Shown here: positions 8,341 to 30,295 of the stretch, one piece after another
How the letters are laid out: each line of letters opens with the position of its first letter
Numbering within the stretch: the stretch's first letter is position 1
From: Alphaproteobacteria bacterium
GTDB lineage: Bacteria; Pseudomonadota; Alphaproteobacteria; Rhizobiales; Rhizobiaceae
DNA length: 64,000 bases
Direction: 5' to 3'
Assembly: GCA_024742485.1 (NCBI GenBank)
Contig: JANSYK010000004.1
Coordinates: 124,001 to 188,000, forward strand
The notes under the pieces: model-generated
What the model saw: the letters and a program-made list of their open reading frames with translations, nothing else
Told to the model about the DNA's origin: nothing
Databases searched by the model: none
Position numbers and translations under genes: made by a program

Positions 8341-8354
8341 TTGATGTCGATCAA
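8341..8354 (-). promoter_or_regulatory. FNR/FixK-type box, perfect
   Basis: TTGATgtcgATCAA matches the FNR/FixK consensus at every conserved base. It sits in the 158-bp gap between the FNR-type gene's stop and the DksA-like gene's start, suitably placed to activate the latter. Confidence 0.75.
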
Positions 8355-8382
8355 CCAGATCCCGGTCCAGACGACCCGTTTG

Positions 8383-9066
8383 TCAGGCTCGCTCGGCAAG
8401 AGCGCGCAATCCGGGCACATTGCAGACATGAACCCGGTGCTTCTTTGGCAACTCGATGACACCGTCTTCGCGAAGCTTCGTCAGGGTTCGACTGATGGTC
8501 TCGATGGTCAGGCCGAGGAAATCCGCAATATCCGATCGGCACATGGGCAAATCGAAACAGGTTTTGCAGTTTTTTGGTTCGCCCACACGATCGAGCAGCG
8601 TCAGCAGAAACGATGCTACTTTCTCCGTCGCGGATTTGCGACCGAGCATGATGAAGTGCTCCTGCATATTGTTAACCTCGGACGCCGCGAATTTCAGCAA
8701 TTTCTTGGCAAATTCGGGTTCCGATTCAATGGAGGCATGACAGGCATTCTTGTGATGGACGCGCAGCTTGACATCACACACAGCCTCGCAATCACTGTGG
8801 TAGAAACAGTCATGGCTCAGACCCACCAGATCTCCCGGATAGCCGAAGGACAAAATCTGCCGTCGCCCGTCGAACAACAGTTTGGAGGTGCGCACGACGC
8901 CCTCCAGGATCTCGTATATATAGATCGCATCATCGCCTTCGCAGAACATCCGGTGACCGGCTTCAGCCGTGCTGAAATGGGAGTGTTTTGCCGTTTCCGC
9001 TTCCACGAAGTGCGGCAATCTGATCTCGGAATGTTCGAAGATACCGATGGGTGACGTGACATACAT
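8383..9066 (-). CDS. CRP/FNR-superfamily regulator, FixK/FnrN type
   Basis: The 227-residue product has a cyclic-nucleotide-binding-type beta-roll (residues about 15-125), a dimer helix (about 130-160) and an HTH whose recognition helix carries E189, S192 and R193 (LTIETISRTLTKL), the residues with which FNR reads TTGAT. It therefore should bind the boxes listed here. It lacks the N-terminal Fe-S cysteine cluster of FNR, but has nine cysteines, including C87/C93/C97 in the beta-roll and C167/C170/C176 just before the HTH. GAGGAG lies 6 bases before ATG 9066. It is divergent from the response-regulator gene. The oxygen link is inferred. Confidence 0.88.
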   Translation of the reverse strand: MYVTSPIGIFEHSEIRLPHFVEAETAKHSHFSTAEAGHRMFCEGDDAIYIYEILEGVVRTSKLLFDGRRQILSFGYPGDLVGLSHDCFYHSDCEAVCDVKLRVHHKNACHASIESEPEFAKKLLKFAASEVNNMQEHFIMLGRKSATEKVASFLLTLLDRVGEPKNCKTCFDLPMCRSDIADFLGLTIETISRTLTKLREDGVIELPKKHRVHVCNVPGLRALAERA

Positions 9067-9262
9067 GCCGGGCTCCTCTCATTCGCTGGTGAATGTTTGA
9101 AGCCATACAATCCTATGTAGGTAATCCCTTTATGGCAGCCATGTAGCGTTGTGTATCAGAATGTCGCTTTGCGATGATGGACATGTGCTCTATAAAACTC
9201 TCACGGCAATGGCGTGTGCCGTAAGTGGGCAATTTGTGAACCTCTCGAAATTTGGGTGCTTT

Positions 9263-10021
9263 GTGTCCGAACGTGCGAAATCAATCTTGGTCGTGGACGA
9301 CGATCCGAAGGTTCGTCTGCTGCTTCGCCGCTGCCTCGAGACAGAGAATTATCAGGTCCTGGAGGCCGATTGCGAAGCTGCCGTTCATCGATGCCTTGAT
9401 GAAAATACCGTCGACCTGATCACTTTGGATCTCAATCTCGGGGTCGAAAGCGGCCTGACCATTGCGGCCGGCCTGCGTGCCAATTCCGATATTCCGATCA
9501 TCATCGTCACCGGCAAGGGCGATGTTATCGACAAGGTGGTCGGCCTGGAAATGGGTGCCGACGACTATATATCGAAACCATTCCATGTCCGGGAAGTCCT
9601 GGCGCGCATCCGCTCCGTATTGCGACGCAGCGACACGCGATCCGATCCACCATGCGAACCGGCTTCGCCGGAGACGGGGCCAAACAGCGACACCGTTTTC
9701 CGCTTTGGTGACTGGATTGCCGATCCAAACAAATTTGAACTGACGCGTGTCGGAAGCAATTCGCCGCAGGACCTGACAACAGCCGATTTCCGGCTGTTGA
9801 CCGTTTTTCTTGAAAACCCCAGACGGGTGCTGTCCCGCGATCAGATAATGGACAGACTCAGCGGACAGGAATGGACCCCCTATGACCGGGCGATCGACAA
9901 TCAGGTGGCCCGTCTGCGCAAGAAAATCGAGCCCGATCCAACCAACCCGACGATCATCAAAACCGTCCGGGGCATTGGCTACACGCTGGTCGCCGAAGTC
10001 ACTGCCATCGAAGCGGACTGA
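9263..10021 (+). CDS. OmpR/PhoB-family response regulator
   Basis: The product (252 residues from GTG 9263) has a receiver domain with the acidic VDDD pocket, phospho-acceptor aspartate in LITLDLNL, the threonine of IIIVTGKGD and the lysine of SKPFH, followed by a winged-helix DNA-binding domain ending TVRGIGYTLVAE. The frame stays open to 9149, but receiver homology begins only at SERAKSILVVDDD, so the start is uncertain and no strong ribosome binding site is seen. It is convergent with the haem-PAS hybrid kinase, its likely partner, and divergent from the FNR-type gene. Confidence 0.88.
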   Translation: MSERAKSILVVDDDPKVRLLLRRCLETENYQVLEADCEAAVHRCLDENTVDLITLDLNLGVESGLTIAAGLRANSDIPIIIVTGKGDVIDKVVGLEMGADDYISKPFHVREVLARIRSVLRRSDTRSDPPCEPASPETGPNSDTVFRFGDWIADPNKFELTRVGSNSPQDLTTADFRLLTVFLENPRRVLSRDQIMDRLSGQEWTPYDRAIDNQVARLRKKIEPDPTNPTIIKTVRGIGYTLVAEVTAIEAD

Positions 10022-10042: not shown

Positions 10043-10049
10043 AAGTGCT

Positions 10050-11603
10050 CTAGCCCCCGCGGCGATGTGTCTCCAGCACGTCGCGCAGCAGCCGCGCCAG
10101 ATCGATCTGTTTATAGGGCTTGCGCAGCAATTGAATGGAATGCGAACCAAGCCTTTGGGCGTTCATCAGGTCTTCCGCATAGCCCGACGTCAGCAACACC
10201 GCGATACCAGGATGGTTGCGGTGCACATGATCAGCAACATCATATCCCGAGATTCCGCCGGGCATTGCCAGATCGGTAAAAACGAGATCAATGCCATCCG
10301 TCCTGCCCAGAATTTCCAGAGCCTCGCCTCCATTTTGGGCCGCAAGCGTGCGATAGTTCAATAACTTCAGGCGCTCAAGCGTTAGCCGGCAGACCCGCGG
10401 ATCGTCCTCGACAACAAGAACCAGTTCGCCTGAACCCTGCAATTCATCGTCGGGGAGGCTGCTCCGTTCGATCCTGGTCGTCTCATCTTCAACCTCGTGG
10501 CGCGGCAGGTAAATATTGACCGTCGTGCCGATCGACTCCTCCGAATAGATCGTCACATTGCCACCGGACTGCTTGGCAAATCCGTAGACCATCGACAGTC
10601 CGAGACCGGTTCCCTGTCCCGCCGGCTTTGTCGTGAAAAAAGGTTCGAATGCCCGCTGCAGGGTCGTATCCGCCATCCCGGACCCGGCGTCCGAAACCGA
10701 AATTCGAACATAGTCGCCGGCCTCTACTCCGACCTCGATGGCCGAATAGGGCGCATCAATGACGACATTGCTGGTTTCTATTATCAGACTGCCAAGATCG
10801 GGCATCGCGTCCCGGGAATTGATCGCGAGATTGAGCAGTGCGTTTTCAAATTTGCCCGGATCGATACGGGTGGTCCACAGATCGGAAAACAGCACCGTTT
10901 GCAGTTCGATGTTTCCATCCAGCGTCCGCTTCAACATGCTGGTCAGATCCCGAACGATCCGATTGACATCAACAACTTCGGGCTGCAAGACGCTGCGGCT
11001 GGCAAAAGCAAGAAGCTGACTGGTGAGGTCGGCACCCATTTCCGCCGCGGCTTGCGCTTCCTCCAGCAGCGCCCGTTGTTCGGGTGCGTCGATGTTCAGC
11101 TCGAGCAATTCGAGATTGCCGGTGATGACGGTCAGAAGATTGTTGAAATCATGGGCAACGCCACCCGTGAGTTGACCGGCGGCTTCGAGCCGTTGCGACC
11201 GCTCCAATGCGCGCTCGGTGTTCTTTCTGGCCGTCAGATCATGAATGATCCCGCAAAAATAGACCCCGTCTTCGGCCCAGAATTCGGTCACCGTGAGATG
11301 AATGGGGAAGGTCGAGCCGTTCTTTTTCAAGCCCTCCGCTTCACGGCCTTTTCCGATGATCCGCTTTTCTCCGGTTTCCAGGTAACGGCGAAGATATTCG
11401 TCGTGTTGCGAAGCCCACGGCTCGGGCATCAGAATGCTGATATTGCGTCCGATCATCTCGTCGATCGCATGGCCAAAAAGCAATTCCGCCGATTTGTTCG
11501 CGGACTGAATAATCCCATGACGATCGATGCTGACAATGGAATCGACCGCGGCATCCAGCAACGCCTCCAATTTGCTTTTCTTTTCGGATTCGTCGGTGCT
11601 CAC
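10050..11603 (-). CDS. FixL-like haem-PAS hybrid histidine kinase with C-terminal receiver
   Basis: The 517-residue soluble protein has a PAS domain (about 15-125), a HisKA/HATPase kinase (phospho-His H151 in GGVAHDFNN; G-rich TGLGLSMVYG) and a receiver (about 385-505; phospho-Asp in FTDLAMPGG). The PAS domain reads ILMPEPWASQHDEY...IIGKGR, closely like Bradyrhizobium FixL ILMPEPDRSRHDSY...IIGIGR. H67 aligns with the haem-ligand His200 and R87 with the distal Arg220, at the same 20-residue spacing. Haem-based oxygen sensing is therefore likely, though not shown. The start is GTG 11603. An FNR-type box lies 38 bp upstream, shared with the BON gene. Confidence 0.85.
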   Translation of the reverse strand: MSTDESEKKSKLEALLDAAVDSIVSIDRHGIIQSANKSAELLFGHAIDEMIGRNISILMPEPWASQHDEYLRRYLETGEKRIIGKGREAEGLKKNGSTFPIHLTVTEFWAEDGVYFCGIIHDLTARKNTERALERSQRLEAAGQLTGGVAHDFNNLLTVITGNLELLELNIDAPEQRALLEEAQAAAEMGADLTSQLLAFASRSVLQPEVVDVNRIVRDLTSMLKRTLDGNIELQTVLFSDLWTTRIDPGKFENALLNLAINSRDAMPDLGSLIIETSNVVIDAPYSAIEVGVEAGDYVRISVSDAGSGMADTTLQRAFEPFFTTKPAGQGTGLGLSMVYGFAKQSGGNVTIYSEESIGTTVNIYLPRHEVEDETTRIERSSLPDDELQGSGELVLVVEDDPRVCRLTLERLKLLNYRTLAAQNGGEALEILGRTDGIDLVFTDLAMPGGISGYDVADHVHRNHPGIAVLLTSGYAEDLMNAQRLGSHSIQLLRKPYKQIDLARLLRDVLETHRRGG

Positions 11604-11640
11604 GCAATTCCGCCCGTTCGGTGTTCAAACTTATTCCTGA

Positions 11641-11654
11641 TTGATGCACGTCAA
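11641..11654. promoter_or_regulatory. FNR/FixK-type box between kinase and BON gene
   Basis: TTGATgcacGTCAA has one deviation (G for A) that is common in FixK/DNR sites. Its centre is 69 bp from the BON start codon and 45 bp from the kinase start codon, so it could serve either. Confidence 0.7.
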
Positions 11655-11715: not shown

Positions 11716-12366
11716 ATGATTCCCGATTCGACATTGAAGCAACGGGTTCTGGACGAACTGCGTTGGGACACCAAAGTAAACGACGCCCATATTGGCGTGA
11801 CCGCCTCGGACAGTTCTGTGACGCTCAGCGGTCATGTGACCAACTTCCCCGAAAAGTTTGCTGCGGGAGAAGCTGCGAAAAGAGTGCGCGGTGTCAAAGC
11901 CGTCGCCGATGAGATCAAGGTCCATCTCCCGGTTGAGCACCGTCGCGACGACAGCGACATTGCCGAGCGTATCGCCCATGTGCTGGAATGGAATATCTCT
12001 ATCCCGAACAACAACATCCAGGCCAAGGTACGGAAAGGATCCGTCACATTGAGTGGCGAAGTTGAATGGCAACACCAACGTTCCCATGTCGAGCAACAGG
12101 TTCGTCACGTTGGCGGCATCAGGGATGTTTCGAACCACATCACGGTCAAGAAAGAGGTGACCACCGCCGAGATCAAGAAGAAGATTGAGGATGCTCTGCA
12201 AAGAAACTCCGAGAGGGAAGCAGAGCAGATCAACGTCTCGGTGTCCGGCGATACGGTAACACTGGAGGGTCAGGTCAAGGCATTCTACGAACGCGATCTG
12301 ATAAAACGCGCGGCCTGGGCAGCGCCCGGTGTGCGCCGCATCGTCGACAATATTCGCGTTTCGTGA
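11716..12366 (+). CDS. triple BON-domain protein
   Basis: The 216-residue product contains three BON domains (about 5-70, 78-145, 150-215), each with the VTLSGHV/VTLSGEV/VTLEGQV strand and a conserved GVRxVxxxI ending (GVKAVADEI, GIRDVSNHI, GVRRIVDNI). BON domains bind membranes or ligands. No signal peptide is visible, so it is probably cytoplasmic, like three-BON stress proteins of other proteobacteria. AGGAGG lies 5 bases before ATG 11716. It follows an FNR-type box. Confidence 0.88.
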   Translation: MIPDSTLKQRVLDELRWDTKVNDAHIGVTASDSSVTLSGHVTNFPEKFAAGEAAKRVRGVKAVADEIKVHLPVEHRRDDSDIAERIAHVLEWNISIPNNNIQAKVRKGSVTLSGEVEWQHQRSHVEQQVRHVGGIRDVSNHITVKKEVTTAEIKKKIEDALQRNSEREAEQINVSVSGDTVTLEGQVKAFYERDLIKRAAWAAPGVRRIVDNIRVS

Positions 12367-12610: not shown

Positions 12611-13327
12611 TTGGAACACAGTCATACACCGGAAGACATTCGCGAGCGGTTGGCCAAACCGTCGGCCACCAGCTACCTGCGCGATTGTGTCTATGGCGGG
12701 ATAGACGGCGCGGTCACGACATTCGCCATTGTGGCCGGTGTCGAGGGGGCCGGCTTTTCGCACACGGTGATCATTGCTCTCGGCATTGCCAATGTTCTGG
12801 CAGATGGTTTTTCGATGGCTGCCGGCAACTATTCGGCCACCAAGACGGACCTCGACAATTTGAAACGGCTGCGTGAAATCGAACGGAAACACATCCGGGA
12901 AATCCCCGAGGGCGAACGCGAGGAGATCAGACAGATCCTGCGGCTCAAAGGCTTGCGCGGTGACGTGCGCGAACAGGCGATGGAGGCCATCACCGCCGAT
13001 GAAACGGTTTGGATCGATATGATGGTTGCCGAGGAATACGGCATCGCGACCACGATCCCCAAGCCGCTTCCGGCGGCTTTCGCAACTTTCCTGTCCTTTC
13101 TCCTATGCGGTTCCGTTCCCCTGCTTCCCTTCGTGTTGCGCATGGCGGACCCGTTTACCACGGCGATCATCGCAACCGGCGTGACGTTCTTTGCAATCGG
13201 CGCCATGAAGAGCCGCTGGTCCTTGTCAAGTTGGTGGCGGTCAGGATCGGAAACACTCCTTATTGGTGCCGTGGCAGCGGCCATCGCCTTTGTTGCAGGA
13301 TATTGGATCGGCCTGATCACCGGCTGA
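12611..13327 (+). CDS. VIT1/CCC1-family iron/manganese transporter
   Basis: The 238-residue product has the VIT1/DUF125 pattern: YLRDCVYGGIDGAVTTFAIVAGVEGAG in the first helix, ADGFSMAAGNYSATKT in the second, a charged central segment rich in Glu (about 85-140), and three C-terminal membrane helices. The family moves Fe2+ or Mn2+ out of the cytosol in exchange for protons. The start is TTG 12611 with only a weak ribosome binding site (no upstream ATG is usable). It lies between two FNR-type boxes and may limit free iron under low oxygen (inference). Confidence 0.85.
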   Translation: MEHSHTPEDIRERLAKPSATSYLRDCVYGGIDGAVTTFAIVAGVEGAGFSHTVIIALGIANVLADGFSMAAGNYSATKTDLDNLKRLREIERKHIREIPEGEREEIRQILRLKGLRGDVREQAMEAITADETVWIDMMVAEEYGIATTIPKPLPAAFATFLSFLLCGSVPLLPFVLRMADPFTTAIIATGVTFFAIGAMKSRWSLSSWWRSGSETLLIGAVAAAIAFVAGYWIGLITG

Positions 13328-13328
13328 T

Positions 13329-13394: not shown

Positions 13395-13832
13395 ATGAAA
13401 CCCATCAAGACCTGGATCCTGATTGCCGACAGCAACCGCGCGCATATGGTCGAAAACACAGGACCGGGCCACGGACTCCGGCAACTACCGGATATCGGGT
13501 GGTCCGCTCCGCAACAGGCCGGGCACAAGGACGACTCCGGCCGATCCTTCAACAGCGTCGGGTCGATGCGCCACAAGATGGAACCAAATCAGCGGACCGG
13601 AGAACATGGTGAGGCTTTTGCCAGGGCAATGTTTGCGGATCTGGTCAGATTGAAGCAGAGGGGCGGGTTCGACCGCCTGATTCTCTGCGCCCCGCCTGCA
13701 ATGCTCGGCCACCTGCGCAAACAGCTGCCGGACCAGTTGAAATCCGACGTCACAGCGGAAGTCGCAAAGGATTTGACGCAAATCGCGCTGGCCAGATTGC
13801 CGGCACATTTTTCCGATGTTCTGGCGATATAG
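13395..13832 (+). CDS. host attachment family protein
   Basis: The 145-residue cytosolic product begins with TWILIADSNRAHMVEN and has an HGEAFARAMFADL helix and a F-D-R-L-I-L-C-A-P-P strand. This matches the Host_attach family, named after an Agrobacterium attachment locus and related to the archaeal eRF1-like fold. Biochemical function is not established. ATG 13395 follows GAGG at about 10 bases. It has its own FNR-type box and sits among stress genes, consistent with a stress role rather than attachment. Confidence 0.8.
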   Translation: MKPIKTWILIADSNRAHMVENTGPGHGLRQLPDIGWSAPQQAGHKDDSGRSFNSVGSMRHKMEPNQRTGEHGEAFARAMFADLVRLKQRGGFDRLILCAPPAMLGHLRKQLPDQLKSDVTAEVAKDLTQIALARLPAHFSDVLAI

Positions 13833-13926: not shown

Positions 13927-14418
13927 ATGACACGCTCTTTCCTTCCCTCCCTGTTCAGCAATGAAAAATCGGACGCGCCGGTTTTTCACTCATTGCATAA
14001 GGAGATCGACCGCGTCTTTGATGAGTTTAAAGGTCTGGTTCCCCGTTTCGACCCCGAACGGTTCCCCGGATTCAACGGTCAGATCGTTCCGCGTCTGAAT
14101 CTGAGCGAGACGGAGGATGCCGTCGAGATTACCGCCGAATTGCCCGGCGTCGGCGAAGACGAGGTCGATGTATCCGTATCGTCCAATGTATTGACCCTGA
14201 AGGGTGAAAAATCGGCGAAGAAGGAAGAAAAGGATAAGGACTATCACGTTGTGGAACGATCCTATGGCAGTTTTGCCCGCACAATTCCTTTGTCCTTTGA
14301 CATCAATCCCGACGAAGTCGATGCCAAATTCAGCAATGGTGTCCTGACCATAACCATCAGGAAACCACCGGAAATCGCAGCCAAGACAAAGAAGATTGCG
14401 GTCAGCAAGGACAATTGA
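13927..14418 (+). CDS. Hsp20/alpha-crystallin small heat-shock protein
   Basis: The 163-residue product has an N-terminal arm, an alpha-crystallin domain (about 55-150) with ELPGVGEDEVDVSV, ERSYGSFARTIPL and the A-x-x-x-N-GVLTITIRKP motif, and a short basic tail. It is an ATP-independent holdase that binds unfolding proteins. ATG 13927 follows a GGAGATGAAAA leader (ribosome binding site GGAG). An FNR-type box lies upstream, and a universal stress gene follows by 125 bp. Confidence 0.93.
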   Translation: MTRSFLPSLFSNEKSDAPVFHSLHKEIDRVFDEFKGLVPRFDPERFPGFNGQIVPRLNLSETEDAVEITAELPGVGEDEVDVSVSSNVLTLKGEKSAKKEEKDKDYHVVERSYGSFARTIPLSFDINPDEVDAKFSNGVLTITIRKPPEIAAKTKKIAVSKDN

Positions 14419-14543: not shown

Positions 14544-15386
14544 ATGTCGTTTAAAACAATACTCGTCTGTCTGACGACCGAAACCAATGCCGAACGGCTG
14601 ATGAAAGCGGCCTGCTCCCTTGCCCGCAGATTCGATGCCCATCTGATCGGATTGCATACGCGGCAGGCCATGCTGGTTCATCCGGGTGTTGCCGTTCACC
14701 TCACACCCCAGTCCATCGAGGCTTTTCATGATGCTCAAAACCGCCAGGCTGAACAGATCCGGAAGATCTTCGAGCAACAGACAGCAAAGGAACCATTCGC
14801 CAATGAATGGCGGCTGGTGAATGCCGATGCCGGCAGTGCCAGTGAGCAGCTTGTCGAGCAGGCGCGCCGCGCTGACCTGGTGATCATGTCCCAGGCCGAT
14901 CCCGAACATGACAGGGCCGATCAGTCGGACATTCAAAGGGATGTGATCCAGGGTGCGGGCCGCCCGGTGATCGTCATACCGAATGTCGGAGAATATACAG
15001 AGTTCGGCAACAGGATCATGATCGGCTGGAGCGCCACCCGGGAAGCAACACGCGCATTGCACGACGCAATCCCGTTCGTACGTGACAAGGGCGAGGCAAC
15101 CGTCATGTGGGTCACCCACTCGGAAAAGGATGCCGACTATCTGGGTCGGTCGGCGGCGGAAGTCGCCAGCGGACTGGAGCGACACGGGATCAACACAACG
15201 GTCACCCATTGGCAAAATGCCGATATCAAGATCGGTGATGCCCTGCTGAACGAGGCCGCCGAGAACGGTGCCGACATGATCGTCACCGGCGCTTTCGGCC
15301 ACTCCCGTTTCTATGATTTTGCCATCGGAGCGACGACCACGCATCTGTTGAAACACATGACCGTACCGGTTCTCTTCTCCAATTGA
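14544..15386 (+). CDS. universal stress protein (tandem UspA domains)
   Basis: The 280-residue product has two Usp-type halves. The N-terminal half starts FKTILVCLTTETNAERLMKAA, and the C-terminal half ends GAFGHSRFYDFAIGATTTHLLKHMTVPVLFSN, a Gx2Gx9G ATP-loop pattern followed by A-T rather than S/T. ATG 14544 has ATGGAGG about 10 bases before it, and the longer open frame upstream overlaps the hsp20 end without homology. It probably belongs to the hsp20 transcript. It is convergent with the M50 protease gene 12 bp away. Confidence 0.88.
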   Translation: MSFKTILVCLTTETNAERLMKAACSLARRFDAHLIGLHTRQAMLVHPGVAVHLTPQSIEAFHDAQNRQAEQIRKIFEQQTAKEPFANEWRLVNADAGSASEQLVEQARRADLVIMSQADPEHDRADQSDIQRDVIQGAGRPVIVIPNVGEYTEFGNRIMIGWSATREATRALHDAIPFVRDKGEATVMWVTHSEKDADYLGRSAAEVASGLERHGINTTVTHWQNADIKIGDALLNEAAENGADMIVTGAFGHSRFYDFAIGATTTHLLKHMTVPVLFSN

Positions 15387-15398: not shown

Positions 15399-16577
15399 TC
15401 ACAGCGCAATGAGGCCGGACCGATGTCCACGGGGCCTGTCCGGTTTACCGGACAGGCCCAGACCCTGCCGGATCGCCAGATAGGAGACGAGATCGGCCAG
15501 GGCGATCACCCCCTCCAGCGTGCCACCCTGTCCGACCAGCATCTTGCGCCGGCCACTCCTGACCATTTTTTCGAACAGCACGTCCGTCGGCATGTCCGCC
15601 GGAACAGTGTTCTCCTCACTGACCGGAACGAGAATGTCGCCAAGGCGGGCCGCCGACCAGTTTTCGCGGTCGATTTCCTGAATGAGTGACGTGTCGACAT
15701 AGCCCAGCAGGTGCTCGCCCTCGAGCACCGGGACAAAACTCACATTCCTTGCCAGCATCACATCGTCCACCAGGGTGGCGACATCGTCATGGACATCTGC
15801 GGTCCGCGGCGACTTTGTCATCAGCGATCGCACCGTCTGATCCCTGAGCGCCGTTTTGATCTGCAGCTGCCTGAAGCTGCCGGTCGATGCATTGATGACG
15901 AAAAATCCGATGAGAATCTGCCACAGACCGCCAACCGCGTTGGCCGAAAAGAGAGACAGCACGCCGGAGATGATCAACAAGGCCCCGAAACCGGTTCCCA
16001 GATTGCTGGCGATCCGCGTCGCCCACAAAAGATCATCCTTGATCCACCACAATACGGCCCGCAAGACCCGCCCACCATCCAATGGAAAGGCCGGCACGAG
16101 GTTGAAAAGTGCCAAGACAAGATTGATCAGACCAAGATAGGCCACAACCTCGTGCAGTGACTTTGAAACGCCACTGATGTCGAGCGCGCGAAGGGTCAAA
16201 AAGGCAAGGCCCGCAAGCGCAAAACTCATGGCCGGTCCGGCAATGGCAATCCAGAACTCCGATTTCGGATTGCGCGGTTCCTGTTCCAGCTCGGCAACGC
16301 CACCAAAGATGAAGAGCGTAATCCCGCCGATCTGCAGGTCGAATTGTCGGGCAACCAGCGCATGGGCAAGCTCATGCAGAATGAGCGACGCGAACAGACC
16401 GAGCATCGCCGCCACCGCAAGGGCAATATAGTCATATTGAGAATAGCCAGGCAGATTGATAGGGAAATAGGCGCTTGAAAGGCTCCAGACAATCAGGGCG
16501 GCAATGAGCAGCCAGCTTGGATCGATCCTGACCTTGAAGCCGAATATTTCGAACAGATTGATCGCATTCCTGAACAT
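15399..16577 (-). CDS. M50-family zinc metalloprotease with CBS domains
   Basis: The 392-residue membrane protein has an N-terminal hydrophobic region with the zinc motif HELAH (H-E-x-x-H) in the third helix, a second motif NLVPAFPLDGGR in a later helix giving the third metal ligand, and about six membrane segments. The C-terminal part (about 230-370) holds two CBS-type repeats that may bind nucleotides. It is a site-2-protease/SpoIVFB-like rhomboid-unrelated intramembrane enzyme; the substrate is unknown. ATG 16577 has GGAGAG upstream. A palindromic FNR-type box lies 73 bp upstream. Confidence 0.88.
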   Translation of the reverse strand: MFRNAINLFEIFGFKVRIDPSWLLIAALIVWSLSSAYFPINLPGYSQYDYIALAVAAMLGLFASLILHELAHALVARQFDLQIGGITLFIFGGVAELEQEPRNPKSEFWIAIAGPAMSFALAGLAFLTLRALDISGVSKSLHEVVAYLGLINLVLALFNLVPAFPLDGGRVLRAVLWWIKDDLLWATRIASNLGTGFGALLIISGVLSLFSANAVGGLWQILIGFFVINASTGSFRQLQIKTALRDQTVRSLMTKSPRTADVHDDVATLVDDVMLARNVSFVPVLEGEHLLGYVDTSLIQEIDRENWSAARLGDILVPVSEENTVPADMPTDVLFEKMVRSGRRKMLVGQGGTLEGVIALADLVSYLAIRQGLGLSGKPDRPRGHRSGLIAL

Positions 16578-20386: not shown

Positions 20387-20418
20387 ACTGATGGGCCCCA
20401 CAAAAACCCGGACGTTCA

Positions 20419-20521
20419 AGAGTATTCGAGGTTGTGACGAAATCGGCAAAATCCGAATGCATCAACTCAATCAAAGGCCGGTTCCATTGTCACGTTTCTG
20501 ACAAAACGTGAGACGATCTAG
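20419..20521 (+). repeat. dispersed intergenic repeat, copy b
   Basis: This nearly full copy runs from AGAGTATTCGAGG through GAATGCATCAAC to the TTGTCACGTTTCTGACAAA inverted repeat and the right end CGATCTAG. The terminal CTAG supplies the stop codon of the antiporter gene on the opposite strand (TAG, read from 20520 to 20518). Confidence 0.65.
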
Positions 20522-22273: not shown

Positions 22274-23482
22274 TCAGGGGGACGTCGACCGCATTTCGAC
22301 AAGGCTGCCATCCTTCAGAACATCATTGGGATAGAGCACGACAGACGTCGCGTCGCTCAAACCGTCCAGCACTTCCGCATGACTGTCACTCATCTGACCG
22401 ATCGTGATCCGACGAAGCACGGCTCGGTCACTTTCCACCATGAAGACGGACCATTCGCCATTTGACCGAAACAGGGCACTGATGGGTGCCTGCAGGGCAT
22501 GATCGTTTTCCCAGGTACGGATATGGGCCAAAACCCGGTAACCGTGGCCCAGTGCCGGCGGCACTGTCAGCGGATCGATCACGATATTGACCCGTTGCTC
22601 CTCGATTCCCAGAGACGATACCTTGGTAAATGCCGCCGGTTCGATCCGCCGCACGATACCCTGAAGATCCGACGATCCGCCCCAGTCGGTGATCCGGACG
22701 TTCGCACCGGCGCGGATCTTCGCCGCATCGCTCGACAAAAGATCAACGACAATTTCCAGGTTTTCCGGATCGCCGATTTCGGCGATCAGCGTACCCGGTG
22801 ACACCGCCTGCTCGCTGCGGGCCAGAACCTTCAGGATAACACCGTCAATCGGCGCTACAATGCTGACGCAGCAATCCTGATCGGCCTGCCGCGCACCGTC
22901 GCTGGTGGGCTGCTGCAAGCGCGCTTCGGCGCTGGCAAGTTCGGCCTCTCGTAGCCGGATCGTCGCTTCCGTGGCATCGATCTGGGCTTTCTCCAGTTGC
23001 ATTTCACTGTAGGCCCGCTCCAGCTGACTGATCGATATGGTGTTGGTCTTTTCAAGCTTTGCCGCCCGCTCGTAATTCGAACTGGCAAGTTCATGGGCGG
23101 TCCGGGCCCGCTGCAATTCGACCTTCGCCAGAGCTACGGCGGATCGGGCCGCTTCGGCAGCCGCCGTCAACTCGGCGCGTGTGCGTTGATCCAGGAACGG
23201 AGGATCGAGCGGATGGATGGAGGCAATCACCGTTTCATTGGCCTTGACCGGCTCCCCTTCATCCAGCGTGGTGCGGTCGAGATGCCCGGCAATCGGCGAG
23301 GAAACGGCATAGACGTCCTTGACGCGCGTTACCCCCTCCTCATCGATCGTCACGGTCATGGGTCCGGCCGTTACGGTCGCGATATCGACGGGAACAGGCT
23401 GCTCACGCATGGCCAGATAAAACCCGGCGCCGATAACCAGCACCAGAGCCAGCAATCCCAGTCTCTTTATCCAGATTCGCAT
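22274..23482 (-). CDS. HlyD-family periplasmic adaptor protein
   Basis: The 402-residue product has an N-terminal membrane anchor (about 8-25), a lipoyl/barrel-sandwich half (VSSPIAGHLDRTTLDEGEPVKANE), a long alpha-helical hairpin rich in Ala/Glu/Arg (about 100-195), the second lipoyl half (CCVSIVAPIDGVILKVLARSEQAVSPGTLI) and a beta-barrel C-terminus. It is the adaptor of the ABC system encoded immediately upstream, with the permease stop 5 bp before ATG 23482. Such MacA-like adaptors connect an inner-membrane ABC transporter to an outer-membrane exit. No outer-membrane factor gene is nearby. Confidence 0.88.
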   Translation of the reverse strand: MRIWIKRLGLLALVLVIGAGFYLAMREQPVPVDIATVTAGPMTVTIDEEGVTRVKDVYAVSSPIAGHLDRTTLDEGEPVKANETVIASIHPLDPPFLDQRTRAELTAAAEAARSAVALAKVELQRARTAHELASSNYERAAKLEKTNTISISQLERAYSEMQLEKAQIDATEATIRLREAELASAEARLQQPTSDGARQADQDCCVSIVAPIDGVILKVLARSEQAVSPGTLIAEIGDPENLEIVVDLLSSDAAKIRAGANVRITDWGGSSDLQGIVRRIEPAAFTKVSSLGIEEQRVNIVIDPLTVPPALGHGYRVLAHIRTWENDHALQAPISALFRSNGEWSVFMVESDRAVLRRITIGQMSDSHAEVLDGLSDATSVVLYPNDVLKDGSLVEMRSTSP

Positions 23483-23487
23483 TGCTT

Positions 23488-25851
23488 CTACTCTCTTGTT
23501 TTCAAAACACGGATCAGGTCAAGCCTGTCCACCCGCCGTCGCACGATCAGCGCCGACACAAGCGCCGCCCCCATCACCACCAGACTGGCCATGGCGAAAG
23601 TCGACGGATAAATGATCAGAGGAATGCGAAACAGGTCGCTGGCAAATCCCTGAACGACACTCCAGGACATGAAATAGCCGATCAGCCATCCCAGCGGTTG
23701 CGCGGACAGCACGATGATGCCGAGCTCGATCATCAGGACACTGGAAACCTCTGCCCGGGTGAAGCCGAACACCCTCAGGCTCGCCAGTTCCCGCGCCCGT
23801 TCGGAAAGCTGAATGCGGGCGGAATTGTAAATCACGCCGAATGTGATGATGACCGCCAGGGCAATATAGACCGTCATCATCGTATTGATGTTCTGTTCGA
23901 TTGTGTCGCGAAACGCACGCCGCGAGTTCCCCTGAAGGGCGATCGACGCCACGGCCGGCGTTTCCTTGATCACCCCATAGAGGTTTTCCATTTCATTGCC
24001 GTCAATCGAAACACGTGTGCCGGAGATCCGTGCACCGTCGCGCATCAGTCGGTCGAGTGCCTCCAGCCGCATATAGGCGGTCAGCCCGACATAGCTTTGC
24101 GCCAATCCACTCACGGTGACCGTTTCGGTTCGGCTGTCCCTTTCAAGCAGCTCGACCTCGACGGGCATGCCTGGACGCAGTTGCAGTTTTTCCGCGACCC
24201 GTTCCGACAATATGAGACCCTGCGCCGTCGGTGGCAGGGGATTGAAATCAAGATCCAGAATGCGCGACAGGTCGGTCTCATAGGGCAATCCGATAATGGC
24301 CATACGCAATTCGCGATGCCCGTTGCGCAGATTGACGGCCGTTTGCCGGAACGGTTCCGCGCGCAGGACCCCCGGCAGTCTTGTGGCGGCCTGAAGCGCT
24401 TCCGGAGCCCGATCGGCAACAAAGGTCAGCGTCGCGTCCTGCCGGTCCGCCTGAAAGAAAATCGTGTCGATCATGTGATCGATGGAGTCGTATGAGAATA
24501 GTGACGTAATCAAGAGCGCCACCGACATGGAAGTACCGAGCGCTGTCAGAAAAGAGCGGACAGGCCAGCGAATGAGATGGCGAAGGGCCATGATCGCGAG
24601 TTGGGAGAAGAGACCGAGCCGCTGTATCTGATCGAGAAAGAAGCTGCGATAGGTCGAGGGCGCAGGAGGACGCATCGCGACCGCGGGGGGCAAGGTGACA
24701 ATCGTCCAAATCGCCTTGGCCGCACCGGCAAGGGCCGCCGCCACGGTCACACCTCCTGCCAGGACATAAAGATCGATGCTCTGGCGAAAGATCAGGAACG
24801 GAAAGGAAAAGAAACCGGCATAGAGGCGGGTCAGTCCGCGCCCCAGCCACAGACCGGTCGCCGAGCCGATCACCAGCCCGACCAGTGCGATCGCCACGAC
24901 CAGTTTGGCGTAATGTCCGCCAATGGCGATATTGCCGTATCCGAGCGCCTTGAGAAGACCGACCTGCTCGCGCTCCAGTGCAATGAGCCGCGACAGGATC
25001 ATGTTGACGAGAAAGGCCGCAACCAGCAGGAAGATGGGCGGAATGATGGAGGACATTGCCTGCAACTGATCCAGCTCAGCGTCGATGAAGGCATGCGAAA
25101 ACTGGTCATCGCGGTCATAGGCCCCCGACCCGCCATAGGGTTTGAGGATATCATCCAGTGCATCGATGATCTGCCGGGTGTCGGCATTTCTCAGGGTCGT
25201 CAATGTGACATCGTTGAACGCGCCATCCAGATCGAACAGGCCTGACAGGCCTTTCAATGACATGAAGAAGATGCCGTATCGCCTGGCGTCGGGCACCATG
25301 TCACCGGGGCCGATTGCATAAATGAACTCGGGAGACAGAACGACACCGACAATGTTCATCTTTTGCTTGCGGCCGTTCAAGATGGCGTCGAACGTATCGC
25401 CTGGGCGAAGCCCGTGCGCATCGGCAAAGGGCTCAACGACCACCACTTCATTTTCGCGGTCCGGTTCAGGCATGCGGCCATAGCGAAGATACAGCCGGTT
25501 GACGGAGGGTTCCTTGAAATCCGGAACGGATACGGCCAGGCCCGATCCCGGCTCGGTCATTCCGGCAACATCGATCAGCACCGGCTCGACAACCCGCAGC
25601 TCGGCCGAGACAACGCCGGAAATGTTTTCAATCCGCGGCTTGAGATGCCGCGGCGCCCGGATCGCCGACGCAAACACCGAACCGAACCGGTAGCGATCAT
25701 AAAATGCCGTGCGGGTGTCTTCCAATGACCGGTAGGAGCCAACTGAGATGATGATCGTTGCAACACCGCAGGCCATGACCAGCGCGATAGCCAAGGCCTG
25801 CGCCCATAGTCGGCCGAGATCACGCACGAGTTTTCTGTCGAGGACACGCAT
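23488..25851 (-). CDS. ABC transporter permease, FtsX/MacB type
   Basis: The 787-residue product has an N-terminal membrane helix, a large periplasmic domain, and two FtsX-type membrane blocks (around residues 260-400 and 680-780), each with three or four helices. It is a long permease with two FtsX units, as in LolC/E- or YknZ-like exporters of lipids, peptides or lipoproteins. ATG 25851 is chosen; a GTG at 25857 overlaps the stop of the ATPase gene and could also start it, so the two are translationally coupled. Cargo is unknown. Confidence 0.87.
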   Translation of the reverse strand: MRVLDRKLVRDLGRLWAQALAIALVMACGVATIIISVGSYRSLEDTRTAFYDRYRFGSVFASAIRAPRHLKPRIENISGVVSAELRVVEPVLIDVAGMTEPGSGLAVSVPDFKEPSVNRLYLRYGRMPEPDRENEVVVVEPFADAHGLRPGDTFDAILNGRKQKMNIVGVVLSPEFIYAIGPGDMVPDARRYGIFFMSLKGLSGLFDLDGAFNDVTLTTLRNADTRQIIDALDDILKPYGGSGAYDRDDQFSHAFIDAELDQLQAMSSIIPPIFLLVAAFLVNMILSRLIALEREQVGLLKALGYGNIAIGGHYAKLVVAIALVGLVIGSATGLWLGRGLTRLYAGFFSFPFLIFRQSIDLYVLAGGVTVAAALAGAAKAIWTIVTLPPAVAMRPPAPSTYRSFFLDQIQRLGLFSQLAIMALRHLIRWPVRSFLTALGTSMSVALLITSLFSYDSIDHMIDTIFFQADRQDATLTFVADRAPEALQAATRLPGVLRAEPFRQTAVNLRNGHRELRMAIIGLPYETDLSRILDLDFNPLPPTAQGLILSERVAEKLQLRPGMPVEVELLERDSRTETVTVSGLAQSYVGLTAYMRLEALDRLMRDGARISGTRVSIDGNEMENLYGVIKETPAVASIALQGNSRRAFRDTIEQNINTMMTVYIALAVIITFGVIYNSARIQLSERARELASLRVFGFTRAEVSSVLMIELGIIVLSAQPLGWLIGYFMSWSVVQGFASDLFRIPLIIYPSTFAMASLVVMGAALVSALIVRRRVDRLDLIRVLKTRE

Positions 25852-25853
25852 GA

Positions 25854-26561
25854 TCACCAGACCACATCTTTGGGCTGCTTGCGGGTCGCATTGGTATGGG
25901 TTTGGGAAACGGCGCCGTCGATAAAGGAGACAACGCGATGGGCTATCTCCTGAATGCCCGCATTGTGGGTGATGATCGCTGTTGTCGTACCAAGCTCCCG
26001 GTTGATCCTGGCAAGCGCCTCCAGCACGATGATGCCCGTCTTGGAATCAAGGGCGCCCGTTGGCTCATCGCACAGCAACACTTCCGGATTCTTCGCAATG
26101 GCACGGGCAATGGCAACCCGTTGTTGTTCACCGCCCGACAATTGGGCGGGAAAATGCGTCTTGCGGTCTCCCAGATCCACCAGTGCCAGCGCCGCGTCAG
26201 GGGTCATCGGTGTCGGTGAAATCTCCGTCACCAGAGCCACGTTTTCCCAGGCTGTCAGGCTGGGGATGAGATTGTAGAACTGGAACACGAATCCGACATG
26301 GTCGCGCCGGTACTGCGTCAGGCGTCGCTCACTGAACGAGGTCAACTCCATGTCCTTGAAATGCACCGTTCCGCTGGTGGCCGTATCCAGCCCGCCGATA
26401 ATGTTCAGGAATGTCGACTTGCCGCTGCCCGACGGGCCCAGCAGAACGGTCATTTCGCCGCCATGGAGCGTGATGTCGACGCCATTCAGCGCCCGGACCT
26501 CGACGTCACCCGTACGGTATATCTTGGTCAGTCCTTCGGTTCGAAAAACCGGATTGTCCAT
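25854..26561 (-). CDS. ABC transporter ATP-binding protein, LolD/MacB type
   Basis: The 235-residue ATPase has Walker [11 protein letters not shown]-loop [18 protein letters not shown], signature [14 protein letters not shown], Walker [13 protein letters not shown] and a switch histidine in IITHN. The [12 protein letters not shown] pattern is typical of LolD-type subunits that pair with FtsX permeases. It is the first gene of the ATPase-permease-HlyD operon. A perfect palindromic FNR-type box (26616-26629) lies 55 bp before its start codon. Confidence 0.93.
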
Positions 26562-26698: not shown

Positions 26699-26756
26699 TA
26701 CACTTGGCTCTGGCCCTCCTATCATCGATATCCACAACGATGGAGGAATGGAATTC

Positions 26757-29213
26757 ATGCCGACACAGGGGCTCGAAGAAAAACAGGTGGTTTGGCTGGC
26801 CGAATGCGGGCGTGGCGATGTCGCCACGGTTGGCGGCAAGAACGCCTCTCTTGGGGAAATGCTGAACAGTTTGACGAAGAAGGGCATTCAGGTGCCGGAC
26901 GGTTTTGCAACCACGTCCGATGCCTATTGGTCCTTTATTGATGACAATGCACTGCGGCCGGTGATAACCGACGCCTTGAATGACCTTCAGAACGGTTCCG
27001 TTTCATTGGCGGAAACCGGAAAACGCATTCGCAGCGCCATCTTGCGTGGCACTTGGCCATCCGATACCGCAGAGGCGATCGGAGCAGCCTATGAAGAGCT
27101 GTCACGCCGCGGCGGCCGCACCGACATCGATGTGGCGGTCCGCTCCAGCGCAACCGCCGAAGACCTGCCGGATGCAAGTTTTGCCGGACAGCAGGAATCG
27201 CTGCTCAATATCACCGGCAAGGATGCCCTGCTGGTCGCCTGCCGGCGGTGCTTCGCCTCGCTGTTTACCGACCGCGCCATCAGTTACCGGATCGCCAAGG
27301 GATTCGACCACATGAAAGTCGCCCTTTCCATTGGCGTGCAAGCCATGGTGCGATCCGACAAGGGGGCGTCAGGTGTTGCATTCTCGATCGATCCGGAAAG
27401 CGGTTTCGACCGGGTTATCGTCATCAATGCCGCCTGGGGGCTTGGCGAAAACGTGGTTCAGGGCACGGTGGACCCGGATGAATATGTCACCTTCAAGCCG
27501 CTGCTCGAAACATCGGGCTATCGCCCCATCGTTGAAAAGCTGCTCGGTCGCAAAGAGCAGAAGATGATTTACGGGACCGACGGATCCGAGACCGAGAATG
27601 TGCCGACATCAAAGGCTGAACAAGCACGATATGTCCTCTCGGACGATGACATTTTGAGCCTGTCGCGCTGGATTGCGACCATTGAGGACCACTATGGCTG
27701 CCCGATGGATGTGGAATGGGCCCGGGATGGCGAAAGTGGCGAACTCTTCATCGTCCAGGCGCGCCCGGAAACCGTGCAATCACGGCGCGATACGTCGGTG
27801 TTCAAAACCTATACCGTCAAGTCAAAGGGGAAAGTCCTGACAACGGGGTCCAGTGTCGGTGGCGCCATTGTCGCTGGCAAGGTTTGCCTGCTTGACAGTC
27901 CGGACGACATTGAACAATTCGTCGATGGCAGCATTCTTGTCGCAACGAATACCGATCCCGATTGGGTACCGGTGATGAAACGTGCCGCCGGGATCATAAC
28001 CGATCATGGCGGCCGGACCTCCCACGCGGCGATCGTCAGCCGGGAGCTTGGTCTCCCGGCCATCGTCGGCACCGGTGATGCCACCCATCAGCTGCATTCC
28101 AGACAGGATGTCACGGTTTCCTGCGCCGAAGGGGCGGAGGGGTTTGTCTATGAGGGCATCGCCGATTTCGAAGCACGGGATGTCGTTCTCGACCATATCG
28201 CCAATACGCGCACAAAGGTCATGTTGAACCTGGCCAATCCGGCGGCGGCTTTCCGCTGGTGGCAAATGCCGGCCGACGGTGTCGGCCTCGCGCGGATGGA
28301 GTTCGTCATCGGCAACCATATCAGAATCCATCCAATGGCGCTGGTCCAGCACGAGACTCTGCGCGATCAGGCGGCGCGCCAGGAGATCGATGTTCTCACC
28401 CAGGGGTATGATGACAAGACCGAGTATTTTGTCGACAAATTGTCTCAGGGACTGGCCCGCATCGCTGCCACCGTCTATCCGAAACCGGTCATTGTTCGCA
28501 TGAGTGACTTCAAGACGAATGAATATGCCAATCTCATCGGCGGCACGCAGTTCGAGCCGCATGAAGACAATCCGATGATTGGCTTCCGCGGGGCGTCGCG
28601 CTACACTTCGCCGCAATATCGCGATGGCTTTGCGCTGGAATGCCGGGCCATCCGCCGGCTCCGGGACGAACTCGGATTCACCAACGTGGTCATGATGATC
28701 CCGTTTTGCCGGTCGCCAGAAGAGGCCAGACAGGTTGTCGACGTCCTCGCTGAAAACGGTCTGAAGCGCGGAGAAAGGCAGCTGGAAATTTACGTGATGT
28801 GTGAAATTCCGGCGAATGTCATTCTGGCCAAGGACTTTGCAGCCCATTTTGACGGCTTTTCGATCGGCTCCAATGACCTGACGCAACTGACGCTCGGCAT
28901 CGACAGGGACTGCGAATTGCTGGCCGATTTGTTCGACGAACAGAACGACGCGGTCAAGTGGATGATCGAAAGGGTCATCGCGACTGCCCACCCGCTGGGT
29001 GCCAAAGTTGGCATTTGCGGGCAAGCGCCCAGCGATCACCCCGAATTTGCCGAGTTTCTTGTCGATTGCGGCATCGATTCGATTTCCGTGACCCCGGACA
29101 GCTTCATCACCGTCAAAGACCATGTCGCCGCGGCGGAGCAAAGGGGAGGATCCACATCCGGCCGCGGCGCCGTTGAACCGGAAAATGCACAGATTGCGGC
29201 TGCCGAAGCATGA
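26757..29213 (+). CDS. ppsA: phosphoenolpyruvate synthase
   Basis: The 818-residue product has the three-domain PEP synthase/PPDK layout: an ATP-grasp domain (VGGKNASLGEM; VAVRSSATAEDLPDASFAGQQES), the central phospho-histidine domain (GGRTSHAAIVSRELGLPAIVG, His about 423) and the C-terminal PEP/pyruvate TIM barrel (MIPFCRSPEEA; GSNDLTQLTLGIDRD; GICGQAPSDHPE). It converts pyruvate and ATP to PEP, AMP and phosphate. ATG 26757 is 9 bases after GGAGGA; ATG 26748 abuts that site. It overlaps pfkB by 4 bp. An FNR-type box lies upstream. Confidence 0.92.
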   Translation: MPTQGLEEKQVVWLAECGRGDVATVGGKNASLGEMLNSLTKKGIQVPDGFATTSDAYWSFIDDNALRPVITDALNDLQNGSVSLAETGKRIRSAILRGTWPSDTAEAIGAAYEELSRRGGRTDIDVAVRSSATAEDLPDASFAGQQESLLNITGKDALLVACRRCFASLFTDRAISYRIAKGFDHMKVALSIGVQAMVRSDKGASGVAFSIDPESGFDRVIVINAAWGLGENVVQGTVDPDEYVTFKPLLETSGYRPIVEKLLGRKEQKMIYGTDGSETENVPTSKAEQARYVLSDDDILSLSRWIATIEDHYGCPMDVEWARDGESGELFIVQARPETVQSRRDTSVFKTYTVKSKGKVLTTGSSVGGAIVAGKVCLLDSPDDIEQFVDGSILVATNTDPDWVPVMKRAAGIITDHGGRTSHAAIVSRELGLPAIVGTGDATHQLHSRQDVTVSCAEGAEGFVYEGIADFEARDVVLDHIANTRTKVMLNLANPAAAFRWWQMPADGVGLARMEFVIGNHIRIHPMALVQHETLRDQAARQEIDVLTQGYDDKTEYFVDKLSQGLARIAATVYPKPVIVRMSDFKTNEYANLIGGTQFEPHEDNPMIGFRGASRYTSPQYRDGFALECRAIRRLRDELGFTNVVMMIPFCRSPEEARQVVDVLAENGLKRGERQLEIYVMCEIPANVILAKDFAAHFDGFSIGSNDLTQLTLGIDRDCELLADLFDEQNDAVKWMIERVIATAHPLGAKVGICGQAPSDHPEFAEFLVDCGIDSISVTPDSFITVKDHVAAAEQRGGSTSGRGAVEPENAQIAAAEA

Positions 29214-30136
29214 CGGGAATCCTGACCGTCACCCTGAATCCAACTGTCGACATCTCCTCGGATGCCGAAATGGTTCGGCCAACATTCAAGATCCGAACCA
29301 GCAATCAGAAACAGCATCCCGGCGGCGGCGGGATCAACGTTGCACGGGTCATCAACGAACTGGGCGGGTCCGCTGTAGCGCTCTATATGTCGGGTGGCGC
29401 AACAGGCGTTTTGCTGGATGAGTGCATTGCTGCTGCAGGCCTGAAAGCGCACCGTGTCGAAACAGCCGGTGCGACGCGCATCGCCTACATGGTTCAGGAT
29501 ATGCACGCGGGCCTGGAATACCGCTTTGTCCCGGAGGGACCTCTTGTCACCGAGAGCGAGTTGGATGCCATCATGGCGCTTATCGAACAATTCGACGGTG
29601 ACTATATCGTTGCCAGCGGAAGCCTGCCGCCGGGATTGCCGGACGATACCTATTCGCAGATCGGCAGGATCGCGAAACGGAAAAATGCCCGTTTCATACT
29701 GGACACGTCTGGTAATGCGTTGCGCGACACGCTGTCATCCTGTGACGTTTTCCTGGTCAAACCCAGCATCGGGGAACTTGAAAAACTGACCGGTGCCAAG
29801 TTGGATGAAGAGGGGGCCAAAGCAGCTGCGCTCCGGTTGGTCAAGGCCGGACGAACCCGTCACGTTGCCGTGTCTATGGGTCGGGGGGGTGCGTTTCTTG
29901 CCAACGATCAGGGCGTGCAGCGGCTCCCCGCAACCCACGTCAAGGTCCGGTCCGCTGTTGGTGCGGGTGACAGTTTTGTCGGGGCCATGGTGCATGCCCT
30001 GTCAACCGGAATCTCTGTCGATCTTGCTTTTCGCCTTGGCGTCGCCGCCGGCGCTGCGGCTGCGATGACGGCCGGGACACAACTGTGCCGTCGTGCCGAT
30101 GTCGAGTCCCTGTTCGCTGTGGAAATCGCACCCTAG
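29210..30136 (+). CDS. pfkB: PfkB-family 6-phosphofructokinase/1-phosphofructokinase
   Basis: The 308-residue product is a ribokinase-superfamily sugar-phosphate kinase of the Pfk-2/FruK type: TVTLNPTVD at the start, HPGGGGINVARV, the ASGSLPPGLP strand, KPSIGELEKLTG, and the catalytic GAGDSFVGAMVHAL with the base Asp. It probably phosphorylates fructose 6-phosphate. The start codon overlaps the ppsA stop (ATGA), so the two are coupled, an odd pairing of a gluconeogenic and a glycolytic enzyme. The stop codon TAG lies in the CTAG of repeat copy d. Confidence 0.9.
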   Translation: MTGILTVTLNPTVDISSDAEMVRPTFKIRTSNQKQHPGGGGINVARVINELGGSAVALYMSGGATGVLLDECIAAAGLKAHRVETAGATRIAYMVQDMHAGLEYRFVPEGPLVTESELDAIMALIEQFDGDYIVASGSLPPGLPDDTYSQIGRIAKRKNARFILDTSGNALRDTLSSCDVFLVKPSIGELEKLTGAKLDEEGAKAAALRLVKAGRTRHVAVSMGRGGAFLANDQGVQRLPATHVKVRSAVGAGDSFVGAMVHALSTGISVDLAFRLGVAAGAAAAMTAGTQLCRRADVESLFAVEIAP

Positions 30137-30236
30137 AGCAATTCCGGTTTTGACGGAATCGGTAAAACCCCAAGGCATCAATGCGTGCAATAGGCAGCAC
30201 GGATGCGTTGCTCCCGACAGAGCGTGAAGCGGCCCG
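30133..30236 (+). repeat. dispersed intergenic repeat, copy d
   Basis: This copy starts CTAGAGCAATTCCGG and continues with TTTTGACGGAATCGG, a GGCATCAATG centre and a divergent right half ending GAGCGTGAAGCGGCCCGG. The left-end CTAG provides the pfkB stop codon (30134-30136). It lies between pfkB and the FNR-type box of the next transcription unit. Confidence 0.65.
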
Positions 30237-30281
30237 GGACCAGCCCGGAACTATCAAAAAATACGATTCTTGCGCCGCCTT

Positions 30282-30295
30282 TTGATCGCGGTCAA
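30282..30295 (+). promoter_or_regulatory. FNR/FixK-type box upstream of the USP-ndvB operon
   Basis: TTGATcgcgGTCAA is identical to the box at 13329-13342. It lies 118 bp before the Usp start codon, so the transcript would have a leader of roughly 75 bases. Confidence 0.7.

Follow-up and report, generated by a model that had tools for sequence, protein, structure and literature searches.

The window, a stretch of 64 kb from a Rhizobiaceae genome (contig JANSYK010000004.1, positions 124,001 to 188,000), contains an island of about 22 kb, many of whose genes are preceded by FNR/FixK-type boxes (TTGAY-N4-RTCAA). We read it, with good confidence, as a stress island for low oxygen with an oxygen circuit of its own, in which a hybrid FixL-like kinase (hFixL), an FxkR-like relay and the activator FixK would act on class II promoters, while FixK and/or a second regulator, FnrN, would also serve boxes elsewhere in the genome. 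Seen directly are the boxes, which are enriched, conserved and spaced as in promoters, a sensor-relay-activator triad with the expected domains and key residues, and a K-box-like site upstream of fixK. This type of circuit is already known from root-nodule bacteria, and the island is a new example that mostly extends rhizobial knowledge. Genes commonly classed under general stress would, on this reading, answer to a specific oxygen cascade, an assignment made testable by the conserved boxes and the K-box-like site.

An initial annotation of this DNA had listed nine TTGAY-type sites, all of which we recovered (Table 1). Seven are the full palindrome TTGAY-N4-RTCAA, for which shuffled sequences give an expectation of 0.41. 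The remaining two, upstream of VIT1 (12535) and Hsp20 (13841), have the right half CTCAA, a form known from published FixK2 boxes such as those of ppsA and phaC2 in Bradyrhizobium (PMC9104804, in the part available). On both strands of the 64 kb the looser pattern TTGAY-N5-TCAA gave 16 matches, compared with 1.3 by chance and a maximum of 7 over 100 shuffles; nine sites yield 16 matches because seven of them match on both strands. The proposal that the boxes are intergenic held for nine of nine such sites in the window, with none coding, given four hand-set start codons. The distance from box to start codon ranges from 37 to 167 bp (65 bp for the DksA-like gene, or 116 bp with its likelier ATG). 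When one core mismatch was allowed, with Y and R kept, the scan returned seven intergenic sites, all already known, and seven coding ones. Because the box at 8341 is located past the 3' end of the regulator gene, it was assigned to the DksA-like gene. The boxes had also been said to precede most transcription units of the island; fixK and the response regulator gene have no TTGAY box.

Across the whole genome (6.87 Mb) the palindrome occurs 61 times and the same pattern read backwards, as a control, 5 times. The densest 22 kb is the island, with 7 of the 61 palindromes, followed by a stretch with 5, and none of 2000 random placements of 61 sites put 7 into 22 kb. Outside the window there are 54 palindromes, 38 of them intergenic according to a codon-usage gene caller, though coding sequence makes up 83% of the stretches around them; at least one of the sites called coding (L098, 18 nt inside the called start) is probably a start-site error. 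The density of boxes in the island is exceptional, yet the motif is genome-wide. The island had originally been described as one regulon with its regulator inside it. A FixK-type regulator does lie inside, but the regulon is not closed: with 54 of 61 palindromes outside the window, and FnrN as a likely second reader, a closed island regulon can be rejected.

We scanned 30 proteins chosen from the genes flanking intergenic boxes outside the window. Four were universal stress proteins (USPs), and there was one each of Hsp20, FtsH, a LonB-like protease, PPK2, an NADH-binding oxidoreductase, COX1 and COX2, the box of the last lying 692 bp from its gene. The others were mixed, with metabolic, transport and regulatory proteins among them, and two had no family. 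Boxes also occur in groups: one of five within 14 kb, with AMP-binding, glycosyltransferase and COX2 genes nearby (G000:C154:251437-265058, L092), one of two within 5 kb, with FtsH and LonB-like protease genes nearby (G000:C120:136783-141579, L088), and two in the gap between a major facilitator superfamily transporter gene and a DNR-like Crp/Fnr gene (G000:C154:991210-991360, L096).

At a class II Crp/Fnr promoter the box is centred at -41.5 and the -10 follows it at a distance of about 22 nt. Reading every island box in the direction of the gene, or of both genes, that it could serve gave 11 readings, and in each we scored the match to TATAAT out of 9. The mean score 21-22 nt past the island boxes was 5.55, compared with 3.01 (SD 0.45) at random intergenic positions of the window, and none of 5000 random sets scored as high. 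A -10-like hexamer (score of at least 5) was found at this distance in nine of the 11 readings, the two low ones being those toward hFixL (2) and the BON gene (4). For boxes outside the window (55 readings) the match peaks at a spacer of 22 (3.36, with 1.6-2.6 at other spacers), and for boxes in four relatives (G003, G004, G005 and G046; 25 readings) at a spacer of 21 (3.64). Judged from sequence, the spacing from box to -10 is that of a class II Crp/Fnr-dependent promoter in all island readings except those toward hFixL and BON.

Conservation was assessed in three members of the same genus with a FixK 72-88% identical (G003, G002 and G004), a more distant one (G005, 59%) and a member of another genus (G046, 55%). 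All five have the triad together with a large part of the island, and most boxes are retained upstream of the orthologous genes. The M50 box is a strict palindrome in six of six genomes; only the window and G003 have the P-type ATPase gene on the far side of it. Strict boxes also precede the ABC exporter, the host-attachment gene and USP-NdvB in five of five genomes having each gene (for USP-NdvB, having it at that place), and the phosphoenolpyruvate (PEP) synthase gene in three of three. The hFixL/BON box (11641) is strict in four of six genomes and has one mismatch in the other two. Across the relatives the half-sites stay while the middle four bases vary. Frequency, intergenic placement, -10 spacing and conservation together support the view that the boxes behave as FNR/FixK-class regulatory elements. 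TTGAC resembles the sigma-70 -35 hexamer and some enrichment at promoters would be expected, but chance or generic promoter sequence with no common regulator is an extremely improbable explanation in view of the excess over reversed controls (61 to 5), the position of the -10 at 21-22 nt past the end of a 14-base palindrome, and the persistence of the boxes in diverged relatives.

The regulator at 8383-9066 has a Crp-type helix-turn-helix and a cyclic nucleotide-binding-like sensor domain. Among solved structures its best match is FixK2 (4i2o, E = 2.8e-32; FNR about 1e-17), and the alignment places E-x-x-S-R in the recognition helix with Glu, Ser and Arg at positions 189, 192 and 193, as the initial annotation had stated. 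The FNR-type N-terminal cysteine cluster, which the genome's FnrN has as CQACEARHRGVC, is absent from this regulator in the alignment; a FixK is recognised by having fewer than the four cluster cysteines of FNR (PMC2908626, in the part available). The regulator is therefore unlikely to sense oxygen itself, and we rejected it as an FNR-type direct sensor.

The likely oxygen sensor is instead the neighbouring kinase at 10050-11603, whose FixL-type PAS domain had been overlooked. This domain aligns with the haem PAS of Bradyrhizobium japonicum FixL (1dp6, E = 6.1e-28), including His67 and Arg87, which we take to be the haem-ligand position and the oxygen-contact arginine of FixL, respectively. 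Both residues were seen in 11 of the 12 kinases read (that of G003 was not displayed). The kinase core is followed by a receiver domain, as hFixL demands, and the response regulator at 9263-10021 is OmpR-type rather than FixJ-type, as expected of FxkR. Upstream of fixK we found the sole site in the 64 kb with at most two mismatches to GTTACA-N4-GTTACA. That consensus is the K-box bound by FxkR, and the hFixL, FxkR and FixK set is known in Rhizobium etli and R. leguminosarum (PMC4999443, PMC7888657, in the parts available). A K-box with at most two of 12 mismatches is present in ten of 12 gaps between fixK and the relay gene, the exceptions being G005 and G003; elsewhere in the scanned stretches few such sites occur (one each in G002 and G005, two in a plasmid of Tropicibacter oceani, L112). 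Taken together, the kinase, the OmpR-type regulator, FixK and the K-box-like site suggest that the island encodes the whole hFixL-FxkR-FixK cascade.

Two feedback loops were considered. Autoregulation of fixK through a TTGAY box was discarded, as the 9067-9262 gap contains no such box and has the K-box-like site instead. For feedback of FixK on hFixL through the box at 11641, no good -10 was seen on that side in four readings (window, G003, G005 and G046). The relay gene of G002 is accompanied, about 1.3 kb away, by a second, truncated fxkR-like copy (L054, 1966-2373) that covers the first 136 residues and is 72% identical. On the T. oceani plasmid a perfect K-box (37475) stands before another two-component pair, about 7 kb from fixK and the relay gene.

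Cys176 of the island FixK aligns with the oxidation-sensitive Cys183 of FixK2, which is Ser in the solved chain. The position is Cys in G003, G002, G004 and G053, Ser in G005, Tropicibacter and Sulfitobacter, Lys in G046 and G069, Thr in G052 and pSymA, and Gln in G067. In the part of PMC2908626 available, a Cys183-type cysteine is reported only from Nitrobacter, Bradyrhizobium and Rhodopseudomonas.

By analogy with relatives we assign the response to oxygen and the direction of regulation, as well as haem binding, phosphotransfer and DNA binding. In the proposed mechanism, oxygen would leave the haem of the hybrid FixL-like kinase, which would then signal to the OmpR-type FxkR-like regulator; this regulator would bind the K-box before fixK and raise FixK. 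FixK would in turn bind the TTGAY-N4-RTCAA boxes, whose centres would lie about 41 bp ahead of the transcription start, and activate the chaperone, USP, protease, exporter, ion-pump, PEP synthase and NdvB-like genes. Boxes elsewhere in the genome would be served by FixK and/or FnrN, and FnrN may take over near anoxia.

To follow the spread of the island, homologues of its USP at 30413 and of the relay were searched in 81 genomes, and gene order was inspected in the window and nine relatives. The relay proved useless as a marker, with an OmpR-type relative in 81 of 81 genomes. The USP was found in eight. Seven of these were examined for the triad, and all seven have it at one place (G000, G002-G005, G046 and G069); the eighth is G032. 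Three of the seven other members of the genus (G001, G006 and G007) have neither the USP nor a close FixK. The USP of G046 and of G069 is on a different contig from the triad, and G052 and G053 have the triad without the USP. Plasmids carry related sets: a 49 kb plasmid of T. oceani has the triad with PEP synthase and a P-type ATPase, and a Sulfitobacter plasmid has it with USPs and cbb3 genes. The exporter permease is present in 64 plasmid records, among which the triad was looked for in pSymA and the plasmids named here. A portable, self-sensing hypoxia module, in which sensor, relay, activator and box-tagged survival genes would move together between alphaproteobacterial chromosomes and plasmids, and in which FixK would in part of the group keep Cys176 at the position of the FixK2 oxidation switch Cys183, is a tentative proposal that we hold below even chances. 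The idea that the unit always travels together is weakened by G067, which has a FixK-like match and neither triad nor USP, by the Tropicibacter plasmid, where the kinase is about 16 kb from fixK, and by a plasmid of R. etli 8C-3, of which a stretch of 31 kb has a kinase 55% identical and yielded no FixK or relay match and no palindromic box. The distribution fits both inheritance from a common ancestor followed by losses and transfer of the whole unit, and the data do not separate them. Within the genus, the genes flanking the island (a Fer4 protein at 4062 and a DUF4147/MOFRL protein at 42224) do not define a shared border, and we therefore claim nothing on insertion. The patchy presence of triad and marker within one genus offers a natural experiment on a regulon moving as a unit.

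FixK is probably not the only reader of the boxes. The genome has 21 Crp-type matches, and the nine that we read include FnrN (C154:1132287), encoded outside the island, and three more proteins with E-x-x-S-R (L003, L004 and L005). FnrN itself has the E-x-x-S-R motif, its gene has a box upstream, and the COX1-type oxidase gene next to it has another at its start; from its sequence FnrN would be, besides FixK, a probable second reader. These features, and its cysteine cluster, would also suit a scheme in which FnrN, a direct oxygen sensor, is the main user of the boxes and the island FixK is minor or has other targets. In R. leguminosarum UPM791 an Hsp20 gene with an anaerobox depends on FnrN (PMC11784457, in the part available). 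We nevertheless consider this scheme rather unlikely: the marker USP and the FixK triad co-occur in seven of the eight USP-bearing genomes, and the three same-genus genomes without a close FixK also lack the USP, despite a Crp/Fnr homologue 38-39% identical. A nitric-oxide regulator of the DNR/NnrR type might also recognise the boxes, FNR, FixK and DNR motifs being virtually identical in alphaproteobacteria (PMC2908626), and L003, L004 and L005, the last with two upstream boxes, could supply it. As the main box user such a regulator is very unlikely, given that the scan of island proteins turned up no nitrogen-oxide gene and that the oxygen cascade is located inside the island.

The circuit that we favour, with FixK acting on the island boxes, resembles several known systems. 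One is Sinorhizobium meliloti pSymA at about 608-633 kb (L114, strain 1021; L117, strain ml45), which shares Hsp20, M50, USP, BON and P-type ATPase genes, the ABC exporter (ATPase 69% identical, with FtsX and HlyD), the relay/FixK/hybrid-kinase triad and palindromic boxes, and whose K-box is perfect. It differs in gene order and plasmid location, the kinase gene follows fixK in the same direction, FixK is only 40% identical, and the 45 kb compared contain no match to PEP synthase, PfkB, NdvB, VIT1 or host attachment. The pSymA relay gene beside fixK and hFixL is read as two frames in strains 1021 (L114, about 20381-21081) and 2011 (L116) and as one in ml45 (L117, 20994-21734), so that the relay may be broken in 1021 and 2011.

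By published description, the island gene set also overlaps the genes under FixK2 in Bradyrhizobium diazoefficiens. Its bll4634-blr4655 region has PEP synthase, host attachment, USP, Hsp20 and efflux adaptor genes with FixK2 boxes; ppsA, host attachment, USP, hspC2 and the efflux adaptor fall about 10- to 110-fold on fixK2 deletion, and ppsA and hspC2 are also activated in vitro (PMC9104804, in the part available). Neighbours up to blr4659 include a microoxia-induced CBS protein and PfkB-type kinase (PMC6515984, in the part available). Control differs, being exerted by FixLJ-FixK2 with FixJ in place of FxkR. R. leguminosarum has the same sensor, relay, activator and K-box plus anaerobox logic together with FnrN, and a chromosomal cluster of fxkRc, fixKc and hfixLc (PMC7888657), near which, judged by locus number, lies the anaerobox-bearing Hsp20 gene RL1883 (PMC11784457). 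In contrast to the island, the gap in that cluster has neither K-box nor anaerobox, and the targets described are respiratory genes and fnrN, as far as the available part of PMC7888657 extends. A more distant parallel, again by description, is the lxa locus of the betaproteobacterium Burkholderia cenocepacia, where clustered USP, heat-shock and BON proteins are tied to low oxygen and the proposed regulator, BCAM0049, is outside the locus (PMC6127331, in the part available).

Several observations weigh against a FixK-driven island. Some concern individual boxes: at 11641 the -10 is weak on the BON side and no good one is seen on the hFixL side; the DksA box is poorly conserved (two of five genomes; present in G003, whereas G002, G004 and G005 gave none); the VIT1 box, asymmetric in the window and G003 and with one core mismatch in G002 and G004, is a full palindrome in none of the four; the Hsp20 box is also poorly conserved, none being found in G003, the nearest relative, a one-mismatch site in G002, and no strict box in the other genomes. 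The window scan found no box for the Na+/H+ exchanger unit. The intergenic count depends on heuristic gene calls and on the hand-chosen starts 11716, 16831, 26751 and 30413; were the longest frames used, the PEP synthase frame would take in 26685, and 11641 would come to lie where the BON frame begins. For the cascade, OmpR-type matches at E = 1e-30 or better in every genome searched leave only place and K-box to mark the relay as FxkR-like, and the K-box-like site itself deviates at two of 12 positions, with three mismatches in G005 and four in G003. FnrN, and perhaps the three other E-x-x-S-R proteins, could read the boxes, so FixK may not be their main user. Finally, the USP, host-attachment and ppsA genes of B. 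diazoefficiens are microoxia-induced but unmarked as FixK2 targets in the available part of PMC6515984.

The remaining genes of the island are listed with the boxes and the triad in Table 1. No integrase was found among four proteins (671, 2297, 4062 and 6254; smaller frames were left out of the scan) near a tRNA-Arg gene (anticodon CCT) that lies at 3895-3971 of the window, about 4 kb ahead of the island.

Table 1. Boxes, regulatory genes and other genes of the island (window coordinates)
Feature	Position	Strand	Domains and remarks
DksA-like zinc-finger gene	7907..8275	-	PF21173, PF01258; start GTG 8275 or likelier ATG 8224
Box TTGATGTCGATCAA	8341..8354	.	for DksA-like gene; GATAAT 22 nt beyond
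fixK-type regulator	8383..9066	-	PF13545, PF00325, PF00027; E189/S192/R193; Cys176; no N-terminal Cys cluster
K-box-like site GATACA-CAAC-GCTACA	9142..9157	-	candidate FxkR-type operator upstream of fixK
OmpR-type response regulator (FxkR-like)	9263..10021	+	PF00072, PF00486; divergent from fixK
Hybrid FixL-like histidine kinase	10050..11603	-	Pfam PAS, HisKA, HATPase, Response_reg
Box TTGATGCACGTCAA	11641..11654	.	between hFixL and BON genes; weak -10 either side
Three-BON-domain protein	11716..12366	+	PF04972
Asymmetric box TTGATCTGGCTCAA	12535..12548	+	upstream of VIT1
VIT1-family membrane protein	12611..13327	+	PF01988
Box TTGATCGCGGTCAA	13329..13342	+	upstream of host-attachment/baeRF gene
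Host_attach / baeRF family 12 protein	13395..13832	+	PF10116, PF18856
Asymmetric box TTGATTCAACTCAA	13841..13854	+	upstream of Hsp20; TATGAC 21 nt beyond
Hsp20	13927..14418	+	PF00011
Universal stress protein	14544..15386	+	PF00582
M50 protease with CBS domain	15399..16577	-	PF02163, PF00571
Box TTGACTTCCGTCAA	16650..16663	.	between M50 and P-type ATPase genes; -10-like hexamer either side
Cation P-type ATPase	16831..19458	+	PF00122, PF00689
Universal stress protein	19556..20386	+	PF00582
Na+/H+ exchanger	20518..21699	-	PF00999
ABC exporter operon	22274..26561	-	Pfam; ATPase 25854-26561, FtsX permease 23488-25857, HlyD 22274-23482
Box TTGACACGGGTCAA	26616..26629	-	reads toward ABC exporter; TATTCA 22 nt beyond
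Box TTGACCACGATCAA	26685..26698	+	upstream of PEP synthase; TATCAT 21 nt beyond
Phosphoenolpyruvate synthase	26748..29213	+	PF01326, PF02896, PF00391
PfkB-family sugar kinase	29210..30136	+	PF00294
Box TTGATCGCGGTCAA	30282..30295	+	upstream of USP-NdvB
Universal stress protein, two USP stretches	30413..31441	+	PF00582
NdvB-like giant protein with GH94 domains	31438..39873	+	PF17167, PF06165, PF10091

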